DNA of 64,000 bases from Gammaproteobacteria bacterium (lineage in GTDB: Bacteria; Pseudomonadota; Gammaproteobacteria; Pseudomonadales; IMCC2047): positions 62,001 to 126,000 of the forward strand of contig JAJFKB010000003.1 in the NCBI GenBank assembly GCA_021773395.1. The letters run 5' to 3'. This document shows positions 29,032-46,970 of the stretch, piece after piece. The translations under genes were made by a program, and so were the position numbers. The stretch's first letter is position 1. Each line of letters opens with the position of its first letter. The notes beneath the pieces were generated by a model. It searched no databases, was not told where the DNA came from, and worked only from the letters and a program-made list of their open reading frames with translations.

Positions 29032-29061
29032 ATCTGGCGCCTGTTAACAGGCCCAAAGATG

Positions 29062-29104
29062 AGCGCCGAGTTCGCCTACCACAAAATGACTCGGCGCTTA
29101 TTTT
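29062..29104 (+). terminator. intrinsic terminator after MFS gene
   Basis: AGCGCCGAGT (29062-29071) and ACTCGGCGCT (29089-29098) form a perfect 10-bp GC-rich stem with a 17-base loop, followed by TATTTT. It lies 30 bases after the MFS stop and is oriented for the plus strand. Confidence 0.78.
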
Positions 29105-29146
29105 ACGGAAATCCTCGGAGAAAAATGCCCTTCCTGGGTCTGCCAA

Positions 29147-31183: not shown

Positions 31184-31283
31184 TTTTTTTACTCAACTAC
31201 GAAAATTCGTTCTTAATTGTGCAGCAATTTGCTAAATTGTCACCCTCAGTTTTTTATTTGTTTAGTTTTATTGGAAAAAACCC

Positions 31284-31820: not shown

Positions 31821-31917
31821 TACTCGCCAGACGATAGGATATTAAACCAATTTGGATAGCTTTTAGAAGGAGAGGCTACTCAACACACCACTTATCTCAA
31901 ATCCACTGGTACCTTCG

Positions 31918-32682
31918 CTACCAAGCCAGTGGTACGACTTGACCATTCAACTCTTTTGCAGCATCCGAGCAAATGAACAGCGTCAACTGTGCCAATGGAT
32001 TTTGATCATCCATCGCTTTGTCGCAAGCCATGTCCACCTGCGCCGCAATAGTTCCCGCAGGTGAAGAGATCGTACTCAGGCGCTGCAGTCCTGCACCAAT
32101 CTCTTTGCTAACCCCGGGGCAGATAACATTGCAGGTAATATCAGGGTGGTTCAGCTCTTCAGAAACCGCCTTGGTCAGCCCCAGCAACCCATACTTCGCA
32201 GAACTGAAGGCTACTTTCAAAGGCGATGTCTCAAGCGCCTGAGCCGGAGCTATATTAATAATTCGCCCCCACCCGGCGCCTCTCATTTTCGGTAACACCT
32301 GCTGAATTAAATGGAACGCAGAGGACAGATTGAGCGCCAGACTCTCATCCCAGACCTCCTTTGTATGGTCTATCAGCGGAGCAGGATGATGATGACTGGC
32401 GTTGTTTATTAGAATATCTATTTTGCCCAGCTGCTTTAACGTCCCTGTCACCAACGCCTCGACTCCCTTTACTGTGCTCAAGTCAGCTGCCAGATAACAT
32501 ATCTTCGCATGATGCTCTTTAGCGAGCTGCGCACACTGCTCATTAACCACGTGCAGATCACCCGGCCCGCTCAGCATCAGATTACAGCCACCGGAGGCAA
32601 GCGCCTTTGCCATGGCAAGACCCACACCACTGGTTGCACCTGTGACTAACGCATTTCTTCCCTTAAGTGCTGGATCGTACAC
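31918..32682 (-). CDS. SDR-fold protein related to 3-hydroxybutyrate dehydrogenase, catalytic Ser/Tyr lost
   Basis: A 254-residue short-chain dehydrogenase-fold protein most like 3-hydroxybutyrate dehydrogenases. The cofactor motif VTGATSGVG (13-21) and an NNAS motif (93-96) are present. At the active site the family pattern IASAHG...SAYVAAKHG reads IAPAQA...VAFSSAKYG, so the catalytic Ser is Pro146 and the catalytic Tyr is Phe159, while Lys163 remains. I checked both codons on the minus strand (CCG and TTC). Such a protein should not catalyse standard SDR chemistry. It may bind NAD(H) or act as a regulatory or structural protein, or be decaying, though the frame is intact. Its neighbour yjbQ is 45 bases upstream in the same direction. 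Confidence 0.88.
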   Translation of the reverse strand: MYDPALKGRNALVTGATSGVGLAMAKALASGGCNLMLSGPGDLHVVNEQCAQLAKEHHAKICYLAADLSTVKGVEALVTGTLKQLGKIDILINNASHHHPAPLIDHTKEVWDESLALNLSSAFHLIQQVLPKMRGAGWGRIINIAPAQALETSPLKVAFSSAKYGLLGLTKAVSEELNHPDITCNVICPGVSKEIGAGLQRLSTISSPAGTIAAQVDMACDKAMDDQNPLAQLTLFICSDAAKELNGQVVPLAW

Positions 32683-32727
32683 CGCTTAGCTCCTCACTTA
32701 ACTATTGGTATCAACCGCTTGAGCTGC

Positions 32728-33147
32728 CTATTCGCCCTGTAAAGTGGCCAGAATCCGACGACTTCCACCATGATTTCGATGCTCACCCAGATAGATACCC
32801 TGCCAGGTTCCCAGACAGAGCTGACCGTTACTGACTGGCACACTGACATTCGAGCCCAGCAGAGCGCTTTTGATGTGAGCGGGCATATCATCTGAGCCCT
32901 CCAGAGTATGCCGGTAATAGGGCGCATTTTCGGGAACCATTTGGTTCAGGTGCGCCTCCATATCTGTGCGAACCGTGTAGTCCGCATTCTCGTTGATACT
33001 CAGTGACGCAGAGGTATGCTGGATAAAAAAATGCGCCAACCCGACACGTACCGATTCAAGCTCCGGTAACTGATCGAGCAGTTCCTCCGTGATCAGATGA
33101 AACCCTCTTTTTTTTGGGGCGATGACCAATAGCTTTTGTTGCCACAT
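32728..33147 (-). CDS. yjbQ: YjbQ family protein (UPF0047)
   Basis: A 139-residue protein of the YjbQ/UPF0047 family. Signature segments are FFIQHTSASLSINENAD (about 37-53) and the C-terminal LGTWQGIYLGEHR. E. coli YjbQ has weak thiamine-phosphate synthase activity and its real role is unclear. I take the Met giving MWQQKLL (ATG 33147), which matches the E. coli start MWYQRTL; an in-frame ATG five codons upstream is possible. Confidence 0.93.
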   Translation of the reverse strand: MWQQKLLVIAPKKRGFHLITEELLDQLPELESVRVGLAHFFIQHTSASLSINENADYTVRTDMEAHLNQMVPENAPYYRHTLEGSDDMPAHIKSALLGSNVSVPVSNGQLCLGTWQGIYLGEHRNHGGSRRILATLQGE

Positions 33148-33237
33148 TAACTCTTTACCCATGCTTAACTGGCTAGTAGAGTTTTGATGATATAATGCCT
33201 GTCACCAATAATCATTAAAAGAGAAGTCTGCCGCTTT

Positions 33238-34614
33238 ATGGCCCGCCCCACTGACAAGCCCATTCATCGTATTAAAACCGGTTTTTTTGAACGCCGCATG
33301 GAGTTGGCCAAGGCCGGATTTATCAGCGGCTCCAGAATGTTAACGCATTCAGCTTCGAATCTTTGGGCCACACCGGAACAGCGTGAAGCCAATAACCGAA
33401 AAATGCTCAAAGAGCAGGCGCTTTATCTGGTATCCGAACTGGGCAAGCTCAAGGGAAGTGTGGTTAAGGTAGGCCAGATGATGGCCATGTATGGCGATTA
33501 TTTTTTACCCAAAGAGGTCACGGACGCGCTACACAGTCTGGAGGACAACACCGCAGAACTTGCCTGGCCGGCGATCCAGCGACAACTTCTCTCTGAATTG
33601 GGGCAAGCAAAACTCGACCTGCTGGAGATCGAGGAAAAACCTATCGCAGCGGCTTCTCTCGGTCAGGTTCACCGTGCCCGTCGCATCAAAGATGGTCGGG
33701 AGCTCTGTATTAAAGTGCAATACCCTGGCGTCGCAAAATCAATTGACTCAGACTTTAATGCCATCATTCAGCTACTGACGCTGGCGCAGATGGTCACCTC
33801 CAAACAGGCGTTTGATCAGTGGTTTAAAGAAGCACGGGCGATGATGCACCAGGAGGTCGATTATCTAAAGGAAGCGCATCATACCCAGTTTGCCGCGCAG
33901 ATGCTTGCCGGGGATGAGCGCTATATTGTGCCAGAAGTGTTTAGCGAATTTTCAACCCATTCGGTACTAACCACTAGCTATGAACCGGGCCTGGTAGTCA
34001 GTGATGCGCAGGTGCTAGCCCTGCCTTTATCGAGACGTAATCATTTGGCGAAGGCCTCATTGGATCTTTTTCTAAGCGAAGTGTTTGATTGGGGCGAAAT
34101 GCAAACTGACCCCAACTTTGGCAACTACCGGATACGGCCGGGCGGCCCAAAACAACCCGACCGGCTGGTACTGCTGGATTTTGGTGCCATGAAACGATTT
34201 CCGAAACAGTTCCTTGATCCGTTCCGCAACATGGTCAGTGCCGCACATCAGCAGCAGCGCCAGACCTTTATTGAGTACGCTATTGAGCTGGAGTTTATGC
34301 GTGCGGATCACCCCGAAGAAGTGCTACAGAACTTTGCTGACGTGGCGATGGAGATAATCGAGCCTCTGGCCCAAAACAACGCAAATATTCCGGATTTCGC
34401 CCTGAATGAAAACGGCGAGTACCGCTGGGCTGAAAGCAACCTTCCCCGGCGCGTGGCAAAAAAAGCCTCCCAGGCCTCGCTCTCCAAGTATTTCGCACTA
34501 CCCCCCAAAGAGTTTATGTTTATGAACCGCAAGCTGATTGGTGTATATAGTTTTATTAAAACACTGAGGGCCGAGTTTAATGGGGGTACGATTCTGAGCA
34601 AACACCTGGACTGA
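33238..34614 (+). CDS. ABC1/AarF/UbiB-family atypical kinase
   Basis: A 458-residue atypical kinase of the UbiB/COQ8 superfamily. The family-specific KVGQ motif lies at 77-80, the Ala-rich nucleotide loop AAASLGQ at 137-143 (replacing the normal Gly-rich loop), the ATP-binding Lys in IKVQYPGV near 158-165, and the metal-binding DFG in LLDFGAMKRF. It is not the ubiB of the ubiE-J-B operon by context, so it is probably a second, stand-alone paralogue. Family members affect ubiquinone or lipid homeostasis and bind or hydrolyse ATP. No C-terminal membrane anchor is obvious. Confidence 0.92.
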   Translation: MARPTDKPIHRIKTGFFERRMELAKAGFISGSRMLTHSASNLWATPEQREANNRKMLKEQALYLVSELGKLKGSVVKVGQMMAMYGDYFLPKEVTDALHSLEDNTAELAWPAIQRQLLSELGQAKLDLLEIEEKPIAAASLGQVHRARRIKDGRELCIKVQYPGVAKSIDSDFNAIIQLLTLAQMVTSKQAFDQWFKEARAMMHQEVDYLKEAHHTQFAAQMLAGDERYIVPEVFSEFSTHSVLTTSYEPGLVVSDAQVLALPLSRRNHLAKASLDLFLSEVFDWGEMQTDPNFGNYRIRPGGPKQPDRLVLLDFGAMKRFPKQFLDPFRNMVSAAHQQQRQTFIEYAIELEFMRADHPEEVLQNFADVAMEIIEPLAQNNANIPDFALNENGEYRWAESNLPRRVAKKASQASLSKYFALPPKEFMFMNRKLIGVYSFIKTLRAEFNGGTILSKHLD

Positions 34615-34783
34615 CTCAAGCGGGGTGTTCATAAACAACTTCGCATAAATTGTTTAGCTTATATCAGGGGATATGTGATAGTGGGAGTAGTCCAACATAT
34701 GTTTTGTTCGCTTACGCAATTTATTTATTATTTCGAAAGCATGCATTATTACCGACCAACAGTTAACAAGAAAGTACACACTA

Positions 34784-35053
34784 ATGAATATAAATTACGA
34801 AGTTCGAAAACATCTCATTGGTTTTTTAAACAGGGTATTGGATCAAAGCTATACCAGAAATGAATGGGAAAATTTCTCATTTAGTATTTATCAAATTGAT
34901 GTGCTAGAGAAGATTAGAAGGGAGGTTATTAATACCATATCTAAAAATTTGGAGCCTAATGGTTTTAAAATGAAAACAATGAGTAAAGAAACTAGAGATT
35001 CAATTCAAGCAATAATAAATGAACTTGATAGAATCAGCATTCAGCCAGCTTAG
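34784..35053 (+). CDS. small AT-rich hypothetical protein
   Basis: An 89-codon frame rich in Ile, Asn and Lys and clearly more AT-rich than the flanking genes, which hints at foreign origin. It would encode a helical, charged, cytoplasmic protein (MNINYEVRKHLIGF...). The ribosome site (AAGAAAG) is weak. I recognise no family. It opens the accessory region right of the UbiB-like gene. It could be a real orphan gene or chance in AT-rich DNA. Confidence 0.45.
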   Translation: MNINYEVRKHLIGFLNRVLDQSYTRNEWENFSFSIYQIDVLEKIRREVINTISKNLEPNGFKMKTMSKETRDSIQAIINELDRISIQPA

Positions 35054-35166
35054 ACAGCCCGCCAGCAGGCTGACTTGACCCTTAAAAGCTTTGCTTTTTT
35101 CAGCCGGGCGCCAACTGTATTTAGTCTAAAACGGAAATTTAATGTCAAACAAGAGAAACGCTTTTC

Positions 35167-35376
35167 ATGGCAAATAAAGAATTTGTTCGTCAGCGAATTC
35201 GTATTTATGCTGACAAAGATTTTGACCCGGCTGTTGATGCACAGGTGGAGGAGGTTTTACGTTCTAATTTCAACATCCACTTGCCGCAAAGAACATCGAT
35301 GAATGAATCTCTAGCGTCAGCGACAAGCGATCATGAAATTATTGGCCTTATATTACAATATCGTAAAATAGACTAA
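35167..35376 (+). CDS. small conserved-looking hypothetical protein
   Basis: A 69-residue charged protein, MANKEFVRQRIRIYADKDF..., ending in SATSDHEIIGLILQYRKID. Codon use looks protein-like, with balanced acidic and basic residues and a predicted helix-strand mix. No membrane segment or signal peptide is seen. I cannot name a family. It lies just before a stretch of gene fragments and a palindromic repeat, so it may be cargo of a mobile or recombining region. Confidence 0.6.
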   Translation: MANKEFVRQRIRIYADKDFDPAVDAQVEEVLRSNFNIHLPQRTSMNESLASATSDHEIIGLILQYRKID

Positions 35377-35508
35377 TAATTATGATACATAGAGCTATCC
35401 AGCGCAGCCATGAACGCACTTCCGGCTGGACCCATCACTTCGCGCCTCGCCCATGCAGCGTGCGTTATGATTGCTCAAGGTTTAGCCGTAAGATTATGAC
35501 GTAACAAA

Positions 35509-35720
35509 ATGACTGATGACTCAAACAATGCGTTGCAACGTGGCCTTGAAAATATTCATGATCTTTTTTAAGCTTTATCCGGACGCAGACAACTACCAGC
35601 TGGTTTCTTCTAGTGGCTACACTTGCGGCCTTGTGGTCGGCTAACTCAGACTATGCTTCTATTTACCAGAATCTGACGCATGCTTCGATTGGCATTTTTC
35701 TGGGTGATATTAAGCTGAAG
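35509..35720 (+). pseudogene. N-terminal fragment of an NhaA-type Na+/H+ antiporter, frameshifted
   Basis: From ATG 35509 the frame reads MTDDSNNALQRGLENIHDLF, then TAA at 35569-35571. Shifting by -1 at the run of six T's (35564-35569) continues as LSFIRTQTTTSWFLLVATLA, then ALWSANSDYASIY and finally GIFLGDIKLK with TAA at 35721. This matches the NhaA start: F-x-R-x-x-T, first membrane helix, ANS-x-x-A-x-x-Y and G-D-x-x-L. The rest of the roughly 400-residue transporter is missing and the homology stops where the palindromic repeat begins. It is a dead fragment with a homopolymer frameshift. Confidence 0.7.
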
Positions 35721-35799
35721 TAAATAATGGAAGCTCACAAATTGGTGAGGCCCCTACAGGACGGTAACAGCAATTTCATTTGTGGGTGTTCAATATCAA
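35719..35799. repeat. palindromic repeat, copy A
   Basis: An 81-base copy of a dispersed repeat (others at 41037-41113 and 43917-43985). It runs from GTAAATAATGGA to CAATATCAA. The ends are imperfect inverted repeats: GGAAGCTCACAAAT (35729-35742) against ATTTGTGGGTGTTC (35778-35791). It lies exactly between the nhaA fragment and the metY fragment. Confidence 0.8.
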
Positions 35800-35800
35800 T

Positions 35801-35960
35801 TCCTCCAGCGTCAAAACCTCCCTCAATACCGAAACTTAGAATGCCAGAAGGTTTCCCGCACAGGTAAGTTTGCGCCAGTTGGCAGTTAGCTTCTATTGCA
35901 TAAATGGGTTGCCTGCTTAATTGGTGACTGGTAACCTGCTGATTGATATACGCTGGCGCG
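35801..35960 (-). pseudogene. internal fragment of an O-acetylhomoserine sulfhydrylase (MetY) gene
   Basis: On the minus strand the translation RQPIYAIEANCQLAQTYLCG continues as KPSGILSFGIEGGFDAGG. This aligns with the conserved MetY stretch Y-A-G-L-E-S...A-Q-K-Y-L...G-A-I-L-(T/S)-F-G-I-K-G-G-x-x-A-G. Only about 50 codons of a roughly 430-codon gene remain. Homology ends at about 35801, where repeat A starts, and fades near 35960. The pyridoxal-phosphate lysine region and both ends of the gene are absent. Confidence 0.6.
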
Positions 35961-36015
35961 AGATTTGTTAATTCTATGTAGGTTGAGGCTATACTTTCCC
36001 TATAGGGGGTCACTT

Positions 36016-37161
36016 GTGGTTGCTCAGCAATCTAGCATTGATTCACTAATCGATACTCTATACGAGTCACTGGTCGATGGGGATCAGTTTGTTAGATTTC
36101 TTGATGGCGTGGCTACAAGCACTAACAGCATTGGCGGTTATGTTGAAACGACTCTGCATGAGCCTTCACCCCGGGTGGCGGGTTTTGTTGGTATTACCGA
36201 AAGTGCTCGGCCTAACGCAGAACTGTATGCGGAGTCGGCGGTGCTCGATAACCCCTATATTCCACACCTCATTTCGATACTCAGCGCGGGCAGTGCAGTT
36301 TATGCAAACGACATAATCCCGCACAAAGAGATTCGCAAAACAAAATATTACGCTGATTGGCTCAGTCTTTGGGGAATTGAAGAATTAGCGGGTGTATGTA
36401 TACAACATGACCACTCCGCCACAACATTAGCTCATTTTGCTTGTAACAGGAGAAATTCTTACTCAGAGCGTGAGCGGGCAATTTTTTCCCAGATTGCTCC
36501 ACACATGGTGCGCTACTGGAAAGTAAAACAACACCTTGGCGCCGCAGAAATACACTCTGCGGTGCTTTGGGAGATGCTCAATGCGCATCGTCACGGTATT
36601 GTTCTCCTAAACTTTCGGGGTGCCCCGATTTTCGTTAACAATGCAGCCAAACGCATTATTGAAAGTAACGATGGCATTGATCTGAAATGCTGCGGGTTTC
36701 ATATCCACTCAAAGCACGCAGATGAAAAGCTAAGCCATATCATTCAAACGATGGTAAATGCAGGTGCCCTGGCATCCGCGATGCCGCTCCCGGAACCGGT
36801 TATTGTGCAAAGGCTCTCGGGCGCTCGCCCCTACCAGATTCTGCTGTCTCCCATAGGTGCGACAGCGGACGCAATGATATCGACAACTCCCACCATGGTA
36901 GCATTCATATTTGATCCGGAAGATCCACTGGCACTGTCCGTAGAACAGTTAGCATCACTATACGGCATGACACAAACCGAAGCTCGACTGGCGCTCTACA
37001 TTGCCCAAGGGATGTCGATAGATGAGTGCGCAATAAAATTGGGGCACCAAGTGTCCACATCCAGAAACCTGCTCAAGCGAGTATTTGCCAAAACAGGCAC
37101 TCATCGCCAGCATGAACTTGCCGTTCTGTTAATACGCTCTGCTATTCCCCTGAAGCGCTAA
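36016..37161 (+). CDS. LuxR-type transcriptional regulator
   Basis: A 381-residue regulator. The C-terminal 65 residues form a LuxR/GerE helix-turn-helix (YGMTQTEARLALYIAQGMSI...STSRNLLKRVFAKTGTHRQHELAVLL). The N-terminal 300 residues resemble PAS/GAF-like sensory parts, with NFRGAPIFVNNAAKRI near residue 205 being PAS-like. The frame opens at a TTG at 35965, but GTG 36016 has AGGGGG seven bases upstream and is the better start. A -10-like TATACT lies at 35990-35995. The stretch 37162-37352 holds no gene. It precedes the PEP-CTERM genes, which may be its targets; this is inference. Confidence 0.85.
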   Translation: MVAQQSSIDSLIDTLYESLVDGDQFVRFLDGVATSTNSIGGYVETTLHEPSPRVAGFVGITESARPNAELYAESAVLDNPYIPHLISILSAGSAVYANDIIPHKEIRKTKYYADWLSLWGIEELAGVCIQHDHSATTLAHFACNRRNSYSERERAIFSQIAPHMVRYWKVKQHLGAAEIHSAVLWEMLNAHRHGIVLLNFRGAPIFVNNAAKRIIESNDGIDLKCCGFHIHSKHADEKLSHIIQTMVNAGALASAMPLPEPVIVQRLSGARPYQILLSPIGATADAMISTTPTMVAFIFDPEDPLALSVEQLASLYGMTQTEARLALYIAQGMSIDECAIKLGHQVSTSRNLLKRVFAKTGTHRQHELAVLLIRSAIPLKR

Positions 37162-37352
37162 ACTTAGAAAACCTCCACCGATATTTCTTTTACTTTGTGT
37201 CCCATATGGGACATGACGCATAACCTTGGTGAGCCGTAGTATTAGTTTTGCCAGAATCCAGATCATAATGATTGCAACAGGTTTGATTATCTATGATTGT
37301 GCGCAAGAAGCAGAATTCATGCTACTGCAGCCAAGTTAACCGGACACTAGTG

Positions 37353-37423
37353 AAAGGCGCTATGGTTTCATCGTACCTAACCTAACCGAATCGAACCCAT
37401 ACAATAAATGGCTAGTTTTGTAA
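37353..37423 (+). pseudogene. fossil 3' end of a third PEP-CTERM repeat gene
   Basis: AAAGGCGCTATGGTTTCAT at 37353-37371 is identical to 38705-38723, which encodes the tail of the intact PEP-CTERM gene. In that frame the fossil reads RRYGFIVPNLTESNPYNKW and ends at TAA 37421, against RRYGFIVPNQISAIH in the intact gene. CCATACA also recurs a little further on. Everything upstream of the tail has been lost. It indicates that the tandem family once had at least three members. Confidence 0.65.
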
Positions 37424-37437
37424 ATAGGAGTGTGTTT

Positions 37438-38754
37438 ATGAAAACCACACAACCCACAGTTCATCCATTGTCGCTTGGCCTGCTAATGATGGTCATGGGC
37501 ATCATGAGTCCGGCGCATGCCAATAACTACACCCTTGAACAGACCCTCGCCAACCCGACACCAGAAAATTTTGATTATTTTGGCAGCTCAGTGGCGGTAG
37601 GTGGCACCACAGCGGTGGTAGGGGCTATTTATGATGACACCACTGGCTCGAACTCCGGCAGCGCCTATGTGTTTGATACCACCACCGGCAATTTGATTAC
37701 TACCCTTGCTAACCCGACGCTAGGGACTTCCGATTATTTTGGCTACTCGGTGGCGGTGGATGACACCATAGCGGTGGTAGGGGCTCATGGGGATGACACC
37801 ACCGGCTCGTATTCTGGCAGCGCCTACGTATTTGATACCATCACCGGCAACTTGCTTTTCACCCTCGCCAACCCGACGCCAGGGGCTTCCGATCATTTTG
37901 GCTACTCGGTGGCGGTGGATGGCACCACAGCGGTGGTAGGGGCTCGTGCAGATGACACCACTGGCTCGAACTCCGGCAGCGCCTATGTGTTTGATACCAC
38001 CACCGGCAACTTGCTTTTCACCCTCGCCAACCCGACACCGGGAGTTAACGATTATTTTGGCTACTCGGTGGCGGTGGATGGCACCACAGCGGTGGTAGGG
38101 GCTTATGGGGATGAAACCACTGGCTCGGATTCCGGCAGCGCCTATGTGTTTGATACCACCACCGGCAACTTGCTTTTCACCCTCGCCAACCCGACGCCAG
38201 GTAGTTACGATTATTTTGGCGACTCGGTAGCGGTGGATGGCACCATAGCGGTGGTAGGGGCTCGTGCAGATGACACCACTGGCTCGAACTCCGGCAGCGC
38301 CTATGTGTTTGATACCACCACCGGCAACTTGCTTTTCACCCTCGCCAACCCGACGCCAGGTAGTTTCGATTATTTTGGCGACTCGGTGGCGGTGGATGGC
38401 ACCACAGCGGTGGTAGGGGCTTATGAGGATGAAACCACTGGCTCGAACTCCGGCAGCGCCTATGTGTTTGATACCACCACCGGCAACTTGATTGCTACGC
38501 TCGCTAACCCAACGCCGGGATATGGCGATATTTTTGGAAGTTCCGTTTCTGTCTCGGGCCAGACCGTACTGGTCAGCGCAAGATACGATGATCCGAACGG
38601 CATTACCGATGCTGGTAGTGCTTATGTTTTTCAGAACGCCCAATCTGTGCCGGAACCCGGTTCATGGTTATTAGTGGCCCTGGGGTTAGGTCTGCTAGTC
38701 TGGCAAAGGCGCTATGGTTTCATAGTGCCTAACCAAATCTCAGCCATACATTGA
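37438..38754 (+). CDS. PEP-CTERM-anchored FG-GAP-like repeat protein
   Basis: A 438-residue secreted protein. It has a signal peptide (MKTTQPTVHP...MSPAHA), seven repeats of 53 residues each with a DYFG-SVAV-GTTAVVGA-D-TTGSNSGSAYVF-TTTGNL pattern (integrin/FG-GAP-like beta-propeller blades), then the sorting signal VPEPGS, a hydrophobic helix and an RR pair. Such proteins are processed by an exosortase and linked to the envelope or exopolysaccharide; no exosortase is in this window. I use ATG 37438, with AGGAG upstream, rather than the earlier in-frame codon. Seven blades fit one closed propeller. The following gene is a short paralogue. Confidence 0.88.
   Translation: MKTTQPTVHPLSLGLLMMVMGIMSPAHANNYTLEQTLANPTPENFDYFGSSVAVGGTTAVVGAIYDDTTGSNSGSAYVFDTTTGNLITTLANPTLGTSDYFGYSVAVDDTIAVVGAHGDDTTGSYSGSAYVFDTITGNLLFTLANPTPGASDHFGYSVAVDGTTAVVGARADDTTGSNSGSAYVFDTTTGNLLFTLANPTPGVNDYFGYSVAVDGTTAVVGAYGDETTGSDSGSAYVFDTTTGNLLFTLANPTPGSYDYFGDSVAVDGTIAVVGARADDTTGSNSGSAYVFDTTTGNLLFTLANPTPGSFDYFGDSVAVDGTTAVVGAYEDETTGSNSGSAYVFDTTTGNLIATLANPTPGYGDIFGSSVSVSGQTVLVSARYDDPNGITDAGSAYVFQNAQSVPEPGSWLLVALGLGLLVWQRRYGFIVPNQISAIH
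37544..38656 (+). repeat. tandem array of seven 159-bp coding repeats
   Basis: Units begin at 37544, 37703, 37862, 38021, 38180, 38339 and 38498, each at CCCTCGCCAACCCGAC or a close variant. The period is exactly 159 bases (53 codons). Central units are nearly identical and the last is diverged. The near identity suggests recent expansion by unequal recombination. Confidence 0.92.
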
Positions 38755-38794
38755 AAACCCATTAGATGGCTGCTCAGTAACAAGGAGAGTGTTT

Positions 38795-39409
38795 ATGAAT
38801 ACTACCCAACCCACAGTTCATCCATTGTCGCTTGGCCTGCTAATGATGGTCATGGGCATCATGAGTCCGGCGCATGCCAATAACTACACCCTTGAACAGA
38901 CCCTCGCCAACCCGACACCAGAAAATTCTGATTATTTTGGCAGCTCAGTGGCGGTAGGTGGCACCACAGCGGTGGTAGGGGCCGGTGGGGATGGCTCGAG
39001 CTCCGGCAGCGCCTATGTGTTTGATACCACCACCGGCAACTTGATTGCTACGCTCGCTAACCCAACGCCGGGATATAGCGATAATTTTGGAAATTCCGTT
39101 TCTGTCTCGGGCCAGACCGTACTGGTCGGCGCAAGATACGATGATCCGAACGGCATTACCAATGCTGGCAGTGCTTATGTTTTTCAGAACGCCCAATCTG
39201 TGCCGGAACCCGGTTCATTGGCATTGCTATGTATTGGGTTATTATTTCTACTTTGGCAAAACAAAACGGGGTTAAAACTAACGTTAGCCAGTAAGTTTTC
39301 TAAAATTAATGACGTAAATCGTGAGGATATTGGACCAGAATTTCCTTTAAGGATACAGTGTCTCAATTACATCTTTATAAAAGAATGGTTTGGCAAGATA
39401 TTAGTTTGA
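38795..39409 (+). CDS. short PEP-CTERM repeat paralogue with abnormal C-terminal extension
   Basis: A 204-residue paralogue of the upstream gene. The signal peptide and first repeat are nearly identical at DNA level, but it has only two repeat units (starting 38901 and 39051, the first 9 bases shorter). The sorting signal VPEPGS and a hydrophobic helix follow, and then about 45 further residues (from NKTGLK to the end) where PEP-CTERM proteins normally stop after a basic patch. Start ATG 38795 has AAGGAG upstream. The extra tail may disturb exosortase recognition or reflect loss of the original stop. Confidence 0.8.
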   Translation: MNTTQPTVHPLSLGLLMMVMGIMSPAHANNYTLEQTLANPTPENSDYFGSSVAVGGTTAVVGAGGDGSSSGSAYVFDTTTGNLIATLANPTPGYSDNFGNSVSVSGQTVLVGARYDDPNGITNAGSAYVFQNAQSVPEPGSLALLCIGLLFLLWQNKTGLKLTLASKFSKINDVNREDIGPEFPLRIQCLNYIFIKEWFGKILV

Positions 39410-39465
39410 TGGCGAGTTATACTCCCTTCAGAAAAATTATAAAAAGCACTGTGGGCTAATTGACA

Positions 39466-40236
39466 ATGAGTAATCATTATCACAAGAGCGCTAAATCACA
39501 AGAGCCATTTAACTGGCGAGTTTTGCTGATCATTTTGCTGGCTACGGGCATGATCTCCGCTCTGGGAGTGGCATTATTTTATTACCAAAAAAATAGTGCC
39601 TCAAACTATGAGGTGAAAAGATTAAAGCAACAGCTGGATGTATTGACGGGTATTTTTGCGGCTACCTTTAACGCAAAAAACCCAACCAATATCGCACTCA
39701 ATAATCCATATCTGCGGCCTGGCTGGCTAGTCAAAGTCTACCCACCTTCAAGTGGAACGAATTACGAGTTAGCGGATAATGATGTGGGCCAATTTGTTCT
39801 GGATGAAACACTTTTTACATTGATGGCACATGAAAATCATGACATCCAACAACCTGAATCCTCCTCGTACAAATTGCACAGCCTATACCCGGTGCAGAAA
39901 GGAGGAATGCATCAATTTGGTATACAATTCCAATATGAATTTGATAAAAAAACCCGATCGACAGTAATCGCGGATTGCAAAATTGTAATGTTGGTCAATC
40001 GCCAGCAGATAATAAACCAGATAGTGCGGCTGTCGCCATCAACTTCAGATGAAGTCCTGATTACAGGGGAAGCACTAGTTCCTCCCGGAATGGCGCAAGC
40101 GGAGCTATTACTCACATGTACTAGAAGCAGTCGTATTCGTGGTGAGCTAATGCACATCAGAATAAAATCAAGAGTACCTGGTGAGTTCGCCTTGTCTTCG
40201 GATCGTGATCGTTTTTTACATTTTGTAGATCAATAG
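39466..40236 (+). CDS. membrane-anchored protein of unknown function
   Basis: A 256-residue protein with a short polar N-terminus, one membrane helix (about 17-40, VLLIILLATGMISALGVALF) and a periplasmic domain of about 210 residues that begins with a possible coiled coil (NYEVKRLKQQLDVLTGIF). The orientation is N-in/C-out by the basic residues before the helix. No catalytic motif is visible and I recognise no family. I use ATG 39466 (MSNHYHK) rather than the TTG two codons earlier. It lies 19 bases before the small exported protein at 40256, probably in one operon. Confidence 0.75.
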   Translation: MSNHYHKSAKSQEPFNWRVLLIILLATGMISALGVALFYYQKNSASNYEVKRLKQQLDVLTGIFAATFNAKNPTNIALNNPYLRPGWLVKVYPPSSGTNYELADNDVGQFVLDETLFTLMAHENHDIQQPESSSYKLHSLYPVQKGGMHQFGIQFQYEFDKKTRSTVIADCKIVMLVNRQQIINQIVRLSPSTSDEVLITGEALVPPGMAQAELLLTCTRSSRIRGELMHIRIKSRVPGEFALSSDRDRFLHFVDQ

Positions 40237-40255
40237 TTAAAAAGAGGAGTCTTAA

Positions 40256-40549
40256 ATGAAAATTATTCTGACTTTAGTACTAACCTTGTTTTTCGTGACG
40301 CCTATTACAGCTTCGGCTGATGATGAAAAGGAAGCGCGTTACCAAATTATCACCATCCAGAGCCTAACCGGTAAAACAGAACCCTTCCTTTTGGATACGA
40401 CGACTGGACGTGTTTGGATCTATGCCTCAGTTAAGGGTAACGATGGTACAGCTCAGGGTTCTGGATGGGTACCCACTATTTTCTACCCTAGAGTGACTGA
40501 AGGTGGTGTGGAAACACTACCAAGAGAGCCAATCAAATCTAAAAAATAA
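40256..40549 (+). CDS. small exported protein of unknown function
   Basis: A 97-residue protein with a signal peptide (MKIILTLVLTLFFVTPITASA, cleavage expected after ASA) and a short mature part. The mature part contains a DTTTGRVW-like segment resembling small beta-sheet repeat motifs, and a basic end (IKSKK). AGAGGAG upstream of the ATG is a strong ribosome site. Its small size and tight linkage to 39466-40236 suggest a partner of that membrane protein. No family recognised. Confidence 0.75.
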   Translation: MKIILTLVLTLFFVTPITASADDEKEARYQIITIQSLTGKTEPFLLDTTTGRVWIYASVKGNDGTAQGSGWVPTIFYPRVTEGGVETLPREPIKSKK

Positions 40550-40710
40550 AATACATGGGGCTGGCCCAGTTAACTAAACCATATTCCTTTTAACCTATTG
40601 TTTTAGTTGGATTAGCTGGTGAATTCCGGGGAACGTTTGCTAAATTCAATAAAAGCAATGATGTGAAGGCGAGACCTTACTAGAATCATATTTCATAGAG
40701 GGAACAAGCA

Positions 40711-41034
40711 ATGGCAAGGATGCCTAGACTGGTTGTACCGGGTTACCCCCACCATGTGGCACAAAGGGGTAACCGACACATGAAAACTTTCTTTTCTTCA
40801 GCAGACTATCGAGCTTATCTGGATCTGATCTGTGATGTTAAAGACGAGATTGGCGTGGATATTTGGGCTTACTGTCTAATGTCTAATCATACTCACCTCG
40901 TTGTTGTTCCCGAGGAGCCAGACGGGTTGTCCAGACTATTTCGCTATATCCATAGACATTACTCACGAAGGATTAACTTTCGGGAAAAATGGAGAGGTCA
41001 TTTGTGGTAGGAGCGTTTTCATTCATTTGTTATC
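40711..41034 (+). pseudogene. REP-associated tyrosine transposase (RAYT), stop codon and 3' truncation
   Basis: The first 99 codons are a clear Y1/RAYT transposase: MARMPRLVVPGYPHHVAQRGNR at the start and the HUH motif in SNHTHLVVVP. The frame stops at TAG 41008-41010 straight after WRGHLW. In intact relatives the next residues are Q-G-R-F-x-S-F-V, and the sequence after the TAG reads ERFHSFVI, so the stop probably arose from a CAG codon. Homology ends near 41034 where palindromic repeat B starts. The later region that normally carries the nucleophilic Tyr is gone. Confidence 0.88.
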
Positions 41035-41036
41035 GG

Positions 41037-41113
41037 GTATAATGGACACTCACAAATCGGAGAGGCCCGGCCCCAACAGAACAGCAATTTCATTTGTGGT
41101 TGCCCAATATCAA
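41037..41113. repeat. palindromic repeat, copy B
   Basis: A second copy of the 70-80-base palindrome, from GTATAATGGACACT to CAATATCAA. The arms GGACACTCACAAAT (41044-41057) and ATTTGTGGTTGCCC (41092-41105) are imperfect inverted repeats, and the centre GAGGCCC is shared with copy A. It directly follows the truncated RAYT. Confidence 0.8.
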
Positions 41114-41405
41114 CTTCGTCAGTAGAGCCTTCGTACGTAACGTTTGCCGCTGTTTTTATTATAGCTTTCCATGCTCAGTCTCACGCTGCCCGTTCGTTCA
41201 CATCGCTAAGAAAATCCAATACGCAAAAACTATTCAATTTTTTTCATATATTTCAACATATCGTATCACTCTCCAGCCATACCATTCTCTGGTTTAAGCT
41301 GCTGAACAGGTTTTAACCAAGAACCCCCATATTGCAGGGTTTCTCCCGCCCCTTCCCTAATTAATATCGTTACTGATAAAATTAGACGAGAATTCAAGGA
41401 TAAGA
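41114..41405. other. intergenic region upstream of the TonB receptor gene
   Basis: About 290 bases, AT-rich. I see no gene. It should contain the promoter of the receptor gene, which has AAGGATAAGA just before its ATG. A short minus-strand frame ending ...GKRYVRRLY near the repeat B edge may be another gene scrap but cannot be identified. Confidence 0.4.
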
Positions 41406-43853
41406 ATGAAAATAAGGGCAAACAGTAAATTCAGGCAGCGCACTTTACTAATCGCGGTCGTTATAGCATCCGTTAATATGGCGGCTCCCGGTCAACTGGC
41501 CAATGCCGCGATACTGGAGGAGGTAGTTGTCACGGCGCAAAAGCATGCACAGCGTGTCAACGATATCGGTATTACCGTAAATGTCTTCTGTGGTGATGTA
41601 ATCAAGGATCTGGGAGTGAGCTCGGCCGGGGATATGGCGCAACTGACACCGGGCTTAACCGTTAATGAAACAGCGGCTACTGGTGTGCCGCTCTATACGA
41701 TTCGCGGCATTGGGTTTCAGGATTATTCCACGGCGGCTTCATCTGCCGTGGGGCTCTATTTTGATGAGGTGGCTGTTCCCTACACAGTAATGAGCCGCGG
41801 CCCAGTGTTCGATGTCGAGCGTGTTGAAGTATTAAAAGGGCCACAGGGCGATCTATATGGGCGAAACACCACCGCCGGCCAGATCAACTTTATCAGTAAC
41901 AAGCCTACCGAGGAGTTTGAGGCGGGATTTACGGCCGGCTACGGGCGTTTCGATCTGTTCGACCTGGAGGGGTTTATCAGCGGCGGCTTAAGCGATAGCG
42001 TGCAGGCTCGGGTTACTTTCAAGACCCGTCAGTCCGGCGAGGGGTGGCAGAACAGTCAAACCCGCAATGATGAGTTGGGTGAGAAGGACGCCAATGCGAT
42101 TCGTGCGCTGTTTAACTTTAACCTGTCCCAGGATATAGGTTTGCGGTTGAACCTACACTACGTCAAGGATAAGTCCGATAACAAGGCCAACACCTCCTAT
42201 AATGGCGCCTTGGCTGGACTCGCTGTATTTAATAATCCCTATACGCCGCTGAACCAGTATTTACTTCCGACCGGTGAATATTTTGGTGAAACGCCGCCCT
42301 GGTATTCCACTGGAGATAGTCGCGCTGCCGATTGGACCAATAGTTATACCAGTCCGATCACAGGGTCAACCTGGGATCTGCGACCAAAACGGGATAATGA
42401 ACTGAAGGGGCTATCGGTGAAGCTGGAGTGGGGTCTGGGAGAGATAACGCTCACCTCCATTACTGGCTATGATGATTTTGAACGGCAGGAGGCCAATGAT
42501 TGGGACGGTGGTTTCTTTAACGACTCCAGCAATATTAATGCCACCGACCTGCAAGTGTTTTCCCAGGAACTGCGGCTCTCCGGCAAAACCGACAGCCTGC
42601 TCTGGGTTGCGGGTGTTTACTACTCTAAAGATGAGATGGATGAATACTATCACTATTTTTTGTCTGATTCGGTGTTTGGTTTCGGTTCTATCTCCTGGGG
42701 TGTGGGCCAGTTTGCTCTGACCCCGATTCTGGAGATTGATACCAAATATTCGCAGGAAACCGAGTCACGCGCAGTATTTGGTCATTTGGAGTGGCGGTTC
42801 ACCGATAAAATGCAGTTAACCGTCGGTTTACGCTATACAGAAGAGGAGCGGGACTGGTCAGGCTGCACCTTTGTTGCCAGCGACGGCAGTTTGGCAGGCT
42901 ACTTGAACGCGCAGTTCGACACCAGTCTGGAAGCGGGAGATTGCGGCACTATCGATGATGACCCAAACTCTCCGACCTATATCTTTAACTTGATCGGTAG
43001 ACCCAACGTCAATGACGCCTTCCATGTTTTTGGGGGGACTATCAGTACCGAAAAGTGGATGGGGAAAGTGGGCGTTGACTATGCTGTTACCAAGGATCTG
43101 CTGATTTATGCCACCTACTCCAACGCCTTTAAGTCGGGAGGTTTTAACGGTGCAAACTCCAACACTACCTTGCAACTTCAGCCCTATGATGAGGAACAGG
43201 TCACCGCCTTTGAGGTGGGCATTAAGAGTACGCTATTTGACGGAGCCATGCAGTTAAACGCTGCCGCTTTCTGGTATGACTATGAAGACAAGCAGGAGCA
43301 GGACCTGGCGGTTGTTTTTGTCGGTAATCTCAGTGGCTTAACCAATGTGCCTGAGTCGCGCATCAATGGTGCTGAGCTGGATTTGCAGTGGGCACCCATG
43401 GAGGGTTTATCGATAAATCTCGGAGTGGCCTACCTGGATACTCTGATTGAGGAGTGGGACGCAACCTCTAATGCCAGTACGTGGCCAACGGTTGTGACCT
43501 TTGATGCGTCCGGGCTTGAGTTAGCACAATCGCCGGAATGGACATACAACGGGATGGTGCACTATGAATGGCCGGTGGGAGAAGTGCTGATGCTGGAGGT
43601 GGGTGCGGATGTTAATTTTACCGACGATACCACCGGCGGCGCGCAGCCCTCGAATGCCACGAACGATTACACCCTTTATAACGCCCGCGCTGGGGTTAAA
43701 GATATCGATGGCAAATGGCGGGCGTTCCTCTGGGGCCGCAATATTACGGATGAAGATTACTATCCCGCGGCTTATATCGGCGGCAACGGGCCCTATGTGC
43801 GAAGTATGGGGGTGCCGGTAACCTATGGTGTCTCCCTTAGCTACAACTTCTAA
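41406..43853 (+). CDS. TonB-dependent outer-membrane receptor
   Basis: An 815-residue outer-membrane receptor. It has a signal peptide (about 1-34), a TonB box EEVVVTAQK (39-47), a plug domain with the usual IRGIGFQ and VERVEVLKGPQGDLYGRNTTAGQINFISNKP stretches (about 97-163), and a 22-strand-type barrel ending in ...YGVSLSYNF with the terminal Phe needed for outer-membrane insertion. It resembles the broad substrate group of marine receptors rather than a named siderophore receptor, and no ABC transporter or FecR-type regulator is nearby. The ligand is unknown. It is flanked by palindromic repeats B and C. Confidence 0.93.
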   Translation: MKIRANSKFRQRTLLIAVVIASVNMAAPGQLANAAILEEVVVTAQKHAQRVNDIGITVNVFCGDVIKDLGVSSAGDMAQLTPGLTVNETAATGVPLYTIRGIGFQDYSTAASSAVGLYFDEVAVPYTVMSRGPVFDVERVEVLKGPQGDLYGRNTTAGQINFISNKPTEEFEAGFTAGYGRFDLFDLEGFISGGLSDSVQARVTFKTRQSGEGWQNSQTRNDELGEKDANAIRALFNFNLSQDIGLRLNLHYVKDKSDNKANTSYNGALAGLAVFNNPYTPLNQYLLPTGEYFGETPPWYSTGDSRAADWTNSYTSPITGSTWDLRPKRDNELKGLSVKLEWGLGEITLTSITGYDDFERQEANDWDGGFFNDSSNINATDLQVFSQELRLSGKTDSLLWVAGVYYSKDEMDEYYHYFLSDSVFGFGSISWGVGQFALTPILEIDTKYSQETESRAVFGHLEWRFTDKMQLTVGLRYTEEERDWSGCTFVASDGSLAGYLNAQFDTSLEAGDCGTIDDDPNSPTYIFNLIGRPNVNDAFHVFGGTISTEKWMGKVGVDYAVTKDLLIYATYSNAFKSGGFNGANSNTTLQLQPYDEEQVTAFEVGIKSTLFDGAMQLNAAAFWYDYEDKQEQDLAVVFVGNLSGLTNVPESRINGAELDLQWAPMEGLSINLGVAYLDTLIEEWDATSNASTWPTVVTFDASGLELAQSPEWTYNGMVHYEWPVGEVLMLEVGADVNFTDDTTGGAQPSNATNDYTLYNARAGVKDIDGKWRAFLWGRNITDEDYYPAAYIGGNGPYVRSMGVPVTYGVSLSYNF

Positions 43854-43916
43854 TGACGAAATTCCTCTTCTGGCGAGAGAATTAATCCCGCTAACTTTCC
43901 CGTGAATAATGGCGAC

Positions 43917-43985
43917 GTAAATAATGGACACCCACAAATTGAGGAAGCTCCTACAGAACTGCACACACAATTTCATTTCTGGGTG
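43917..43985. repeat. palindromic repeat, copy C
   Basis: A third copy of the palindrome. It begins GTAAATAATGGACACC, identical over its first 12 bases to copy A, with left arm GGACACCCACAAAT and right arm ATTTCTGGGTG. It ends at 43985, exactly where a fragment of the fic gene begins. The left flank (43854-43916) is non-coding. Confidence 0.78.
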
Positions 43986-44053
43986 CTCTGCCTTTAACTG
44001 ACGTGAAACGCCTGCTAAAAGCTCAAAAAGAGAATCTGCGTGATACTGAAAGG
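43986..44053 (+). pseudogene. 68-bp fragment of a fic gene
   Basis: This stretch matches 44740-44807 inside the intact fic gene at 63 of 68 positions. All five differences lie in the first 20 bases and are synonymous; the last 48 bases are identical. It encodes LPLTDVKRLLKAQKENLRD and a little more. It is flanked by repeat C on the left and a GGGGACG motif on the right. The pattern points to a related but distinct fic allele as source. Confidence 0.9.
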
Positions 44054-44056
44054 AAG

Positions 44057-44078
44057 AAAAAGGGGACGCATTTATTTT
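44057..44078 (+). repeat. short motif of the type found beside RAYT transposases
   Basis: AAAAAGGGGACGCATTTA followed by TTTT. Near-identical strings are familiar as repeated sequences next to RAYT genes in gammaproteobacteria. Here it follows the fic fragment, with no transposase adjacent. Recognition is from memory of the motif. Confidence 0.45.
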
Positions 44079-44152
44079 GACTAACCTTCCACTCCGGCCC
44101 GATCCCTATTATTAAAAATTCCGAGAATATCCCGGCGTAGTATTTTTTGATT

Positions 44153-44354
44153 CCCCTAAAGCGGGTGAGCATCGCAGTCAAATGGCGGGGAAAGAGAGGG
44201 TTGTTTGAGCATAGCGAGTTCCCGAACGGGCGTCATTTGATGAGAAGCGCAATGGACAGGTTGTAAACCTGCCGCGTTCCGGGGGAGCCTTTTCTTTTGG
44301 TTCGGTTTTCTTTGGGCATGCAAAGAAAATGAACTCGCCCAGCAAGGCGAAACC
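44153..44354. repeat. GC-rich intergenic repeat, long copy
   Basis: The stretch from CCCCTAAAGCGGGTGAGCAT to about 44216 recurs at 46422-46486. The long copy continues through GTTCCGGGGGAGCCTTTTC and a perfect hairpin, TTTTCTTTG (44306-44314) against CAAAGAAAA (44321-44329) with a 6-base loop. This looks like a widespread gammaproteobacterial intergenic element. Any encoded frames are artefacts. The stretch 44355-44492 holds nothing else I can name. Confidence 0.75.
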
Positions 44355-44492
44355 TTAGCCTGAAGAAACCAATAGATAGGTGAAAAGGTTTCGCGTCTGT
44401 ATATATATGATAATTATCCATTTTATCTATCCTTTAGAAGTTGTTGCATCTGACGAAGAATTTAGGCCTACAGAAGGATGTTCCGTTAACAA

Positions 44493-44566
44493 CGGCTAAT
44501 TTAGGGCTATATTACGGCTCAATAATTTGTTGCTTTAAGGCTAGTTATCGGCTAATTTAAGGCTAT
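44493..44566 (+). promoter_or_regulatory. direct repeats at the fic start, candidate operator
   Basis: CGGCTAATTTAGGGCTAT (44493-44510) and CGGCTAATTTAAGGCTAT (44549-44566) match at 17 of 18 positions; the second copy runs into the ATG. TTTAAGGCTAGTTAT (44534-44548) is a partial third unit. A protein bound here would block the ribosome site or promoter. The winged-helix end of the Fic protein is a candidate ligand. Confidence 0.55.
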
Positions 44567-45602
44567 GAACTGGGTGCCTAAATACACAATTAGCAACAAA
44601 CTTCTCTCGACGATGCGTGCAATAGGTGAATCTTTGGGAGAGCTTAAATCATTCCACCTTAGCGATCAGGATCTCGCCAAATTGGAGATTGAAGCAAGGG
44701 AATTATCGTCCTATGCATCCACCAGCATTGAGGGCAACCCTCTGCCTCTGACCGATGTAAAACGCCTGCTAAAAGCTCAAAAAGAGAATCTGCGTGATAC
44801 TGAAAGGGAGGTGCTGAATTACAATAAAGCCCTGCAATCTCTTTATGCCGATGTGCGCTCGGGTAAATTTAAACTAACTATAAAGGCGCTGGAAAAAATT
44901 CAAGGACAGGTCGTTCATGGTTTAATGGACAATCCCGCGCATTGCGGTGCTTTACGGGAAGCTCCGGTCATCATTCGTAACCCACGAAAAATCGGTGAGA
45001 TTGTATTTATTCCGCCCGATAGCAAAGACGTTAGAAAGCTTTCTGGCGACTTGTTCAAATTTGTCGAAAGCAATATAGGGAAGATTGACCCCATCATTCT
45101 GGCGGGGATTTTCCACCGCCAATGCGTAATTATCCACCCTTTCATTGATGGCAATGGCAGAACAACAAGATTGCTAACAACGGCTATTTTAGGAACAGCA
45201 GGGCTAGATTTGTTCGAGATATTCAGTTTTGAGAATTACTACAATCGAAACATCACGCGCTACTTTAAGGCTGTTGGCCTTGAGGGGGATTATTACGACC
45301 TGAAAGATGATGTTGAGTTTTCGGATTGGTTAGAGTATTTCGCGGACGGCATTTTGGATGAGCTTCGCCGCGTGCGTAAAACTTTGCCGGAACAAACAGG
45401 AGCAAAGCCACGTTTAGAGATTCACCACAGGCAAATACTGGATTATATTGAAGAGCATGGCAGCATCACGCAGCGCGAATACGGCAGCATATCATCTCGC
45501 AGCCTCGCTTCGAGAAAGCTGGACTTTGATAAGCTGGTTAAGCTAAACCTCATACAGGCGGAAGGTATAGGACGCGGTACCTACTATGTGAGCGTTGCTT
45601 AA
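44565..45602 (+). CDS. Fic-domain protein (class II, self-inhibited AMPylator) with winged-helix tail
   Basis: A 345-residue Fic protein. The N-terminal Fic_N region carries the inhibitory helix motif S52-T-S-I-E56-G57, matching (S/T)xxxE(G/N). The catalytic loop HPFIDGNGRTTR spans 191-202 with catalytic His191 and all the phosphate-binding residues. The C-terminal 60 residues form a winged helix (ILDYIEEHGSITQREYGSIS). Family members transfer AMP from ATP to Ser, Thr or Tyr of target proteins, and the internal helix makes a separate antitoxin unnecessary. Direct repeats overlap its start codon. A fragment of a related fic gene lies 0.5 kb upstream, so the locus has been rearranged. Confidence 0.95.
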   Translation: MNWVPKYTISNKLLSTMRAIGESLGELKSFHLSDQDLAKLEIEARELSSYASTSIEGNPLPLTDVKRLLKAQKENLRDTEREVLNYNKALQSLYADVRSGKFKLTIKALEKIQGQVVHGLMDNPAHCGALREAPVIIRNPRKIGEIVFIPPDSKDVRKLSGDLFKFVESNIGKIDPIILAGIFHRQCVIIHPFIDGNGRTTRLLTTAILGTAGLDLFEIFSFENYYNRNITRYFKAVGLEGDYYDLKDDVEFSDWLEYFADGILDELRRVRKTLPEQTGAKPRLEIHHRQILDYIEEHGSITQREYGSISSRSLASRKLDFDKLVKLNLIQAEGIGRGTYYVSVA

Positions 45603-45676
45603 AAAGTCCGCTTTCGACTGACTAACAGACCATACAGATCAACCCTCAATCAACTGATCATGATAAACTACCCTTT

Positions 45677-46339
45677 ATGCTAAATGCGATAGTCACAGGC
45701 GCAAACAGAGGCATTGGGTTAGCCCTCTGCCGAGCGTTGTCGGAACGTGGTTACCGGGTGACGGCCTTGTGCCGCCAATCCAGTGATGCGCTGAAAACTT
45801 TGCCCGTCGAAGTTCACGAGGGCTATGACGTGACCGATGAAAGCGCAATTGATGTCTTCGCTAATAGGGTTGCTCCTGATTCAATCGATCTTCTGGTTAA
45901 CAATGCGGGCGTGTTACAGGGGATGTCGCTTAACGCTTTGGATATTGACTCGATACGCCACCAGTTTGAGGTCAATGCGATTGGTCCCTTGCGGGTGACC
46001 GCTTCTTTGCTTCCCAAGCTAAAACACGGTAGCAAAGTAGCGCTGATCACTAGCCGGATGGGGTCTATGGGCGACAATGACTCAGGCGGTAGTTATGGTT
46101 ACCGAATGTCAAAGGCAGCGCTGAACGCGGCGGGTGTTTCATTGGCGAAAGATTTAAGTGTCAGAGGCATCGCCGTGGCACTGTTGCATCCGGGATATGT
46201 TAAGACGGATATGACCGGGACAGCCGCGTTAATCGACACCGATGAATCGGTTGCCGGCCTGCTGGATCGTATCGACCAACTGAACCTGGATAACTCGGGT
46301 AGTTTCTGGCATATGAATGGCGAAATACTGCCCTGGTGA
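45677..46339 (+). CDS. short-chain dehydrogenase/reductase, C-factor-like
   Basis: A 220-residue SDR with intact motifs: TGANRGIG (8-15), NNAG (about 76-79), an ITSRMGS catalytic Ser segment and Y-x-x-x-K in YGYRMSKAALN. The overall layout is closest to the CsgA/C-factor-like SDRs of the classical type. Substrate unknown. In contrast to the SDR-like protein at 31918, the catalytic residues are all present. It lies 74 bases after fic in the same direction. Confidence 0.9.
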   Translation: MLNAIVTGANRGIGLALCRALSERGYRVTALCRQSSDALKTLPVEVHEGYDVTDESAIDVFANRVAPDSIDLLVNNAGVLQGMSLNALDIDSIRHQFEVNAIGPLRVTASLLPKLKHGSKVALITSRMGSMGDNDSGGSYGYRMSKAALNAAGVSLAKDLSVRGIAVALLHPGYVKTDMTGTAALIDTDESVAGLLDRIDQLNLDNSGSFWHMNGEILPW

Positions 46340-46421
46340 TCAACCTAGCAGTTGCTAGCTCGAAATCTTTTTAGAGCTTTAAAAATCACCACATAGCTCA
46401 GTACGAAGTGCATACCACCTC

Positions 46422-46486
46422 CCCCTAAAGCGGGTGAGCATCGCAGGTAAATGACGGGGAAAGTGAGGGCTGTCTGAGCCGCAGGC
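46422..46486. repeat. GC-rich intergenic repeat, short copy
   Basis: From CCCCTAAAGCGGGTGAGCAT to about CTGAGCCGCAGGC. It matches the first 65 bases of the long copy at 44153 with a few differences and lacks the hairpin part. It lies between the SDR and zinc-ribbon genes. Confidence 0.8.
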
Positions 46487-46535
46487 AAAATAAAACGCTA
46501 AATCAGGAAAGCAAACCCGAAGAGTAAGCGGGACC

Positions 46536-46919
46536 ATGATGGAATCCAAAATTCCCGTTATTTCTGATCTCTACCGCTGCCGCAAATGCCAGGCCCCTGC
46601 TGCGCGCGGGAATAGCTACTGCCGCCGATGTGGCATTGTATTTACCGCTCAAGATGTTGGATATATGGAAGCCCATAAGCGCACCGTCTTTGGCGCTTCC
46701 CCCTGGAACCTGCGCGACCGATACCGCTGCGTCCATTGCCAGGAATGGCTGTGCATCACCGACCAGTATTGCCGAGGCTGTGGCGATCAAATCGACAGCG
46801 TGGAAAAGTCGATGATGAAAGCCAGGGTTCAAGAATTGGCAGCGCGAAATTGGCCATCCGTTGTCGGCTTGGCTGTTTTTGTTATCCTGACTTTCTTCGC
46901 AATTATCGCATTGGGGTAA
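46536..46919 (+). CDS. double zinc-ribbon protein with C-terminal membrane anchor
   Basis: A 127-residue protein with two zinc ribbons, CRKC...CRRC (about 14-32) and CVHC...CRGC (about 65-82), each with two Cys pairs. A single C-terminal membrane helix follows (VVGLAVFVILTFFAIIAL). Such tail-anchored zinc ribbons display a metal-binding domain on the cytoplasmic side. I do not recognise a specific family. Two consecutive ATGs (46536, 46539) are possible starts. Confidence 0.75.
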   Translation: MMESKIPVISDLYRCRKCQAPAARGNSYCRRCGIVFTAQDVGYMEAHKRTVFGASPWNLRDRYRCVHCQEWLCITDQYCRGCGDQIDSVEKSMMKARVQELAARNWPSVVGLAVFVILTFFAIIALG

Positions 46920-46970
46920 GATATTTTTTTGGCTTAAAAAGGATATTTGTCTGCTTAAGCAGACACGTAA

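Follow-up and report, generated by a model that had tools for sequence, protein, structure and literature searches.

RAYT-associated repeats and the window studied

Classical repetitive extragenic palindrome (REP)-associated tyrosine transposases (RAYTs) are accompanied by short inverted pairs, termed REPINs or bacterial interspersed mosaic elements (BIMEs), which the RAYT may mobilize in trans. Here, we describe three short repeats, copies A, B and C, whose inverted ends also bound RAYT genes and lie where gene fragments stop. They are located in a 64,000-nt stretch of a gammaproteobacterial genome (assembly GCA_021773395.1, contig JAJFKB010000003.1), hereafter the window and numbered from its first base. 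The genome (G000) comprises 3.80 Mb in 26 contigs, and the window corresponds to C13:62001-126000.

Another described system is the TIRtron, or TIRYT, presented in the available text of Di Nocera 2013 (PMC3733652) as a RAYT-like gene enclosed by terminal inverted repeats that bear no relation to GTAG REPs. These repeats also occur as dispersed copies, some as dimers or clusters, and GGGGWSAS is a motif common to some of them (PMC3733652). In the accessible part of Quentin 2018 (PMC6006769), 20 of 26 TIRtron examples fall in subclass 2.1, and TnpAY1 subclass 2.3 is characterized by a median length of 325 aa and the motifs NHYH and YVDLNP; neither automatic nor manual searches gave REP-like sequences for subclasses 2.1 and 2.3. 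By title and abstract, nothing among the RAYT-related literature matches listed describes ends for subclass 2.3.

The system found here resembles a TIRtron in that a RAYT-like gene stands between inverted ends. It differs in that the ends read [AG]GACACCCA[TC]nnTAA, not GGGGWSAS, and accompany a subclass 2.3-type gene, and in that gene fragments abut their tips; the available text of PMC3733652 contains neither 'capture' nor 'gene fragment'. What is new is that a RAYT subclass reported to lack recognizable ends has a system resembling the TIRtron, together with fragments that stop at the tips. The copies share short inverted pairs with REPINs and BIMEs but show no GT[AG]G-footed hairpin, no folding excess and a low copy number.

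Copies A, B and C form one family with inverted ends

The three copies were found as repeat families D4, D6 and D9 and align as a single family, ~70-80 bp long, with a mutual identity of 69-80%. Each consists of a left end resembling ATAATGGACACYCACAAATYG and an inverted right end, CAATTTCATTTNTGGNTG. Tips were placed 8 nt beyond the end motif, since in one related locus (L031) the likeness between RAYT copies extends 7-8 nt past it. Combining repeat families, end-pattern matches and alignment, copy A extends from tip to tip over positions 35720-35799 and copy B over 41035-41113, both on the forward strand. Copy C, on the same strand, occupies 43917-43985; its right outer flank is missing and is followed by fic DNA, the right tip being predicted by the 8-nt rule at 43996. 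Allowing up to 3 mismatches, the left-end pattern matched the window 4 times (0.26 expected), namely at the left ends of A, B and C and at the inverted right end of A. The right-end pattern matched 6 times (1.01 expected), 3 of them exactly. Non-coding, short (~70-80 nt) and bounded by inverted ends, the copies share these features with miniature inverted-repeat transposable elements (MITEs).

A preliminary description of this DNA had presented the copies as three imperfect palindromes of 70-80 bases. The three copies and their kinship hold, but the palindrome does not: single-strand folding does not exceed that of dinucleotide shuffles in A, B or C (z of 0.37, 1.00 and -1.45), so that a pair of inverted ends describes each of them better. 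With no folding signal and no Rfam match at the gathering threshold, we rejected the idea of a hairpin or an RNA element. The suggestion in that description that they might be a miniature mobile element agrees with what we found, as their short inverted ends are like those bounding RAYTs. Copy C gave no DNA match at E 0.001 in any of 95 relatives.

The same ends bound a RAYT gene and its relatives

Across the whole genome, GGACACCCACAAATTG occurs at 12 sites with up to 2 mismatches, and its reversed control at none; two of the 12 (on C6 and at C21:58556) show no further likeness, and the left end of copy A is more diverged. A link between the repeats and a RAYT had been proposed as a check, and it was borne out: two inverted sites, C26:261165-261180 (+) and 262430-262445 (-), flank a RAYT gene at C26:261245-262243. 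The encoded protein is full-length (333 aa), carries the motifs NHYH and YVDLNP, and has itself as its sole match in the genome at E 1e-20. Its scores against the generic models PF01797 (22.1 bits) and NF047646 (45.2 bits) are below their cut-offs. Length and both motifs fit TnpAY1 subclass 2.3, to which it probably belongs.

We then compared the best 80 relatives of this protein among the matches listed, several of them from one genome and including members of Shewanella, Alteromonas, Colwellia and Sedimenticola. With our own protein included, YVDLNP is present in 79 of 81 sequences, whereas NHYH, a motif of subclass 2.3 in the accessible part of Quentin 2018, is found in only 30; the others have NHLH (24), NHTH (16), NHFH (6), another motif (3) or none that was found (2). 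An earlier inverted-repeat search of these loci was suggestive but noisy and is superseded by a motif learner started from random seeds, whose only input was the 300 nt upstream of 76 loci. It returned the end motif given above, and the six best of 60 seeds all contained GGACACCCAT.

At 9 bits or more, the motif is present upstream in 70 of 76 loci, against 1/76 on the opposite strand, 0/76 in shuffles and 4/75 at 1 kb further up. In the 450 nt downstream, which were not used in learning, it occurs inverted in 64 of 74 loci, and the corresponding controls gave 5/74 (wrong orientation), 1/74 (shuffles) and 6/68 (far). Raising the threshold to 13 bits left 66/76 loci upstream and 52/74 downstream, with 1/76 and 3/74, respectively, on the wrong strand. 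The motif sits a median of 88 nt before the RAYT gene, and conservation outside it covers only ~5 TWAN-like nucleotides. A conserved inverted end thus accompanies these genes, a difference from what is reported for subclass 2.3.

No hairpin excess was detected at 69 upstream ends (mean fold z of -0.24, compared with -0.28 in 69 control windows); z fell below -2 at 9 ends and in 5 control windows. GT[AG]G occurs somewhere in the 80 nt, on either strand, at 40 of these 69 ends. Classical REPs were ruled out, there being no hairpin excess either at the 69 upstream ends or in A-C. The folding of these 69 upstream ends likewise gave no sign of the subterminal hairpins of IS200/IS605 elements.

Copies without a gene also exist elsewhere. 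Among 38 RAYT-bearing genomes, 8 contain inward-facing pairs of exact cores 15-45 nt apart, 11 sites in all, and the reversed pattern gave none. Dispersed copies of the end pattern number 337 in those 38 genomes, reached via the loci, against 95 for the control, most strongly in G113 (50 vs 4), where intergenic clusters are ordered + then -. Neighbouring ends no more than 80 nt apart in the 80 loci mostly point the same way (++ 44, -- 43, +- 5, -+ 1), so single-end arrays are commoner than miniature pairs.

Gene fragments stop at the tips

At copy A, a 218-nt piece with the 5' part of nhaA and upstream DNA (35502-35719, forward strand; Pfam Na_H_antiport_1), 80% identical to C12:55648-55866 of the same genome, ends one base before the left tip. 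On the opposite strand, a metY-like piece (35803-35881) begins 4 nt past the right tip; it is 76% identical to C3:52127-52205, which lies inside a 423-aa open reading frame (ORF), and metY was named by eye. Copy B follows a truncated RAYT gene (40711-41034, forward strand; PF01797, NHTH motif) with an in-frame stop at codon 100. With the stop written as X, its NF047646 match reaches residue 108 for a query of 109 residues and for one of 140 alike, and the similarity ends at 41034, one base before the left tip of B. Copy C is followed directly by a 71-nt fic fragment (43986-44056, forward strand), 92% identical to positions 44740-44810 of an intact, parent-like fic gene (44565-45602, forward strand; PF02661). 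The fragment begins immediately after the core of C, at a point 10 nt inside the predicted tip; its first three letters might just as well form the final three of the end of copy C.

Four of the seven fragment boundaries (nhaA and metY at A, RAYT at B, fic at C) therefore lie 1-10 nt from one of six tips. Such a coincidence arose in 0 of 100,000 random draws over the whole stretch and with a frequency of ~1.5e-4 when draws were limited to the 2,617 positions outside listed genes. The placement of the fragments at A, B and C had been described correctly. The further claim that the copies mark joints of foreign pieces stands for the joints, at A-C and in the 80 related loci (see below), but not for the foreign origin, which is not established because this genome itself contains parents of the nhaA, metY and fic fragments (76-92% identity). 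The sequence GGGGACGCATTTATTTT (44062-44078), at the fic fragment's far edge, resembles a RAYT-linked repeat; it occurs once in the window.

Duplications and truncations at the ends in other genomes

In a self-comparison of the 80 loci, 23 duplication boundaries fall 1-30 nt outside ends; random positions give 2.05, and 11 boundaries lie in the seven bins spanning -100 to -31. These counts derive from ordered alignments, so that one event may count more than once. In one comparison, locus L063, whose matches are repeats of the ends themselves, was set aside, and 11 of the 80 RAYT loci remain. Two loci (L030 and L031) contain a RAYT piece without its 5' part ~16 nt past a right-end motif, and in L067 a 658-bp unit between two ends recurs past the following end. 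An immunity-like ORF in L145 (G206) retains 58 codons, compared with 152-153 in the versions from G227 and G267 of the same genus; its likeness to these relatives begins 9 nt from the right-end motif, one base beyond the predicted tip.

Locus L145 (G206:C18:190000-209900) comprises six RAYT 2.3-type ORFs, whole or cut, within ~12 kb; five have both ends at 12 bits, and they alternate with orphan ORFs. None of the five cargo ORFs scanned gave a Pfam match. At two further loci, L143 (G223:C1) and L144 (G201:C99), ends occur in runs and clusters that mostly share one orientation, and PIN, HicB, Phd and helix-turn-helix antitoxin-like ORFs lie between them.

Origin of the joints

We favour, with some reserve, the explanation that A-C are decayed non-autonomous miniature elements of a subclass 2.3 RAYT and that the joints result from the action of the RAYT at their tips. 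In the available text of PMC8266576, cleavage by HUH nucleases yields a 5' phosphotyrosine together with a free 3' OH able to prime replication or to attack another strand, and the Escherichia coli TnpAREP cleaves near a REP and joins an unrelated oligonucleotide at the cut sites in vitro. A subclass 2.3 RAYT, as an HUH/Y1 nuclease, might likewise recognize the end, reading its sequence instead of a hairpin, and nick single-stranded DNA at the tip, so that the 3' end would be free and the 5' end bound to protein. In most cases, both ends of an element would be rejoined or moved; occasionally, a tip might be joined to other DNA, or a deletion might begin there, and half a gene would be left against the tip. 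If subclass 2.3 acts like TnpAREP at the tips, half-gene joints and deletions starting from tips are to be expected. Should the tips be preferred points of breakage and fusion, gene fragments, truncated immunity genes and local duplications would arise from these RAYTs, and the conserved end offers a directly testable substrate for RAYT genes that are common in the order (C26-like genes in 58 of 195 genomes at E 1e-20).

Several observations weigh against this explanation. The copy formed by the C26 RAYT gene and its ends, and the ends at C26:258180/258214, are situated within or beside gaps whose flanking genes seem whole; not every copy, therefore, marks a fragment, and the check proposed in the preliminary description, whether copies lie in ordinary gaps, came out in its favour at A-C and against it on C26. 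At copy C, the joint does not coincide with the predicted tip but lies 10 nt inside it. Beside the intact parents of nhaA and metY, nothing like an end was found except one weak 9-mer. Many of the duplications concern the RAYT itself or large units explicable by ordinary recombination. Across the order sample, 260 sites with the pattern GACACCCAYNNTWA were counted in the 58 RAYT-bearing genomes, not much above the 215 of the reversed control. The other 137 genomes gave 118 against 203; pattern and control both increase with RAYT presence, and many dispersed copies as a mark of RAYT-bearing genomes were set aside as a weak signal, one that was clearer in the 38 genomes reached via the loci. The DNA on the two sides of each of A-C differs, and neither a clear target-site duplication nor an excision product was seen; 52 RAYT element pairs gave no clear direct repeat (best z of 2.9 among 55 offset/length combinations).

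The main competing explanation, which we regard as possible but unlikely, accepts the RAYT-2.3 ends and considers the joints passive, that is, produced by homologous or microhomology recombination between copies with no involvement of the nuclease. It accounts readily for the 658-bp unit repeated in L067, as from unequal crossing-over between copies, and for the tandem RAYT units of L145, whereas the 5'-truncated RAYT pieces of L030 and L031 and the 71-nt fic piece require one non-homologous side. Copies of ~70-80 bp that are 69-80% alike are, moreover, poor substrates for such recombination, and the absence of an element at the intact nhaA and metY parents also speaks against it.

A broader extension of nuclease action is, in our view, rather doubtful. 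Subclass 2.3 RAYTs might be sequence-specific, hairpin-independent, single-strand cut-and-join enzymes whose ends serve as joining points for gene pieces, and the end arrays with toxin-antitoxin and immunity-like genes (L143-L145) might work much as integrons do, with cargo gathered, duplicated and trimmed but no tyrosine integrase involved.

It is improbable that the elements simply inserted into a region of gene debris and that boundaries and tips match by chance or through the same decay. The setting lends itself to this idea, as A-C lie within a variable stretch of ~13.9 kb (33109-47038) that is absent from the corresponding position in two genomes of the same family. This follows from G002:C16 and G003:C12, in which the collinear flanks are neighbours, with <0.2 kb between the matched segments; the matches end at 33108 (33047 in G003) and resume at 47039 (47301 in G003). 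Yet the proximity of four of seven boundaries to the tips is rare even within intergenic DNA, and a like effect is seen in the 80 loci elsewhere. In addition, a DNA search of positions 28001-48000 against the own genome (E 1e-4) returned a whole receptor paralogue, a separate repeat and two gene fragments, so that both fragments it found abut copy A.

The idea that A-C are folded attC-like sites, used by the integron integrase encoded near the end of the same contig (C13:408-1403; TIGR02249, 421 bits vs a cut-off of 265), is very improbable: single-strand joining of gene pieces is proposed in both cases, but the integrase does not fit, because A, B and C with their flanks have no RYYYAAC or GTTRRRY core on either strand, as the preliminary description had already recognized; they also show no folding signal, and the ends track RAYTs instead.

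Other copies and neighbouring features

By eye, two other copies in this genome adjoin gene pieces; further copies are placed within or next to ordinary gaps. At C13:1788, near the integrase gene, a longer variant of the element stands beside an SDR-like C-terminal piece. On C1 (L016:3334-3429), a cut copy of the end lies ~35 nt before an apparent tRNA 3' end; ARAGORN finds no whole tRNA in this interval. On C21, a right end stands alone at C21:75004, with an ORF (L140:2647-4026) that resembles, again by eye, a group II intron reverse transcriptase ~1 kb away.

Within the variable stretch, the separate intergenic repeat (44150-44354) has 85-91% matches at C12:254164, C12:58532 and C13:173011. 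Neighbouring genes at 37408-39409 share near-identical stretches and look like a duplicated pair, the first of which encodes an FG-GAP/PEP-CTERM protein with 159-bp internal repeats.

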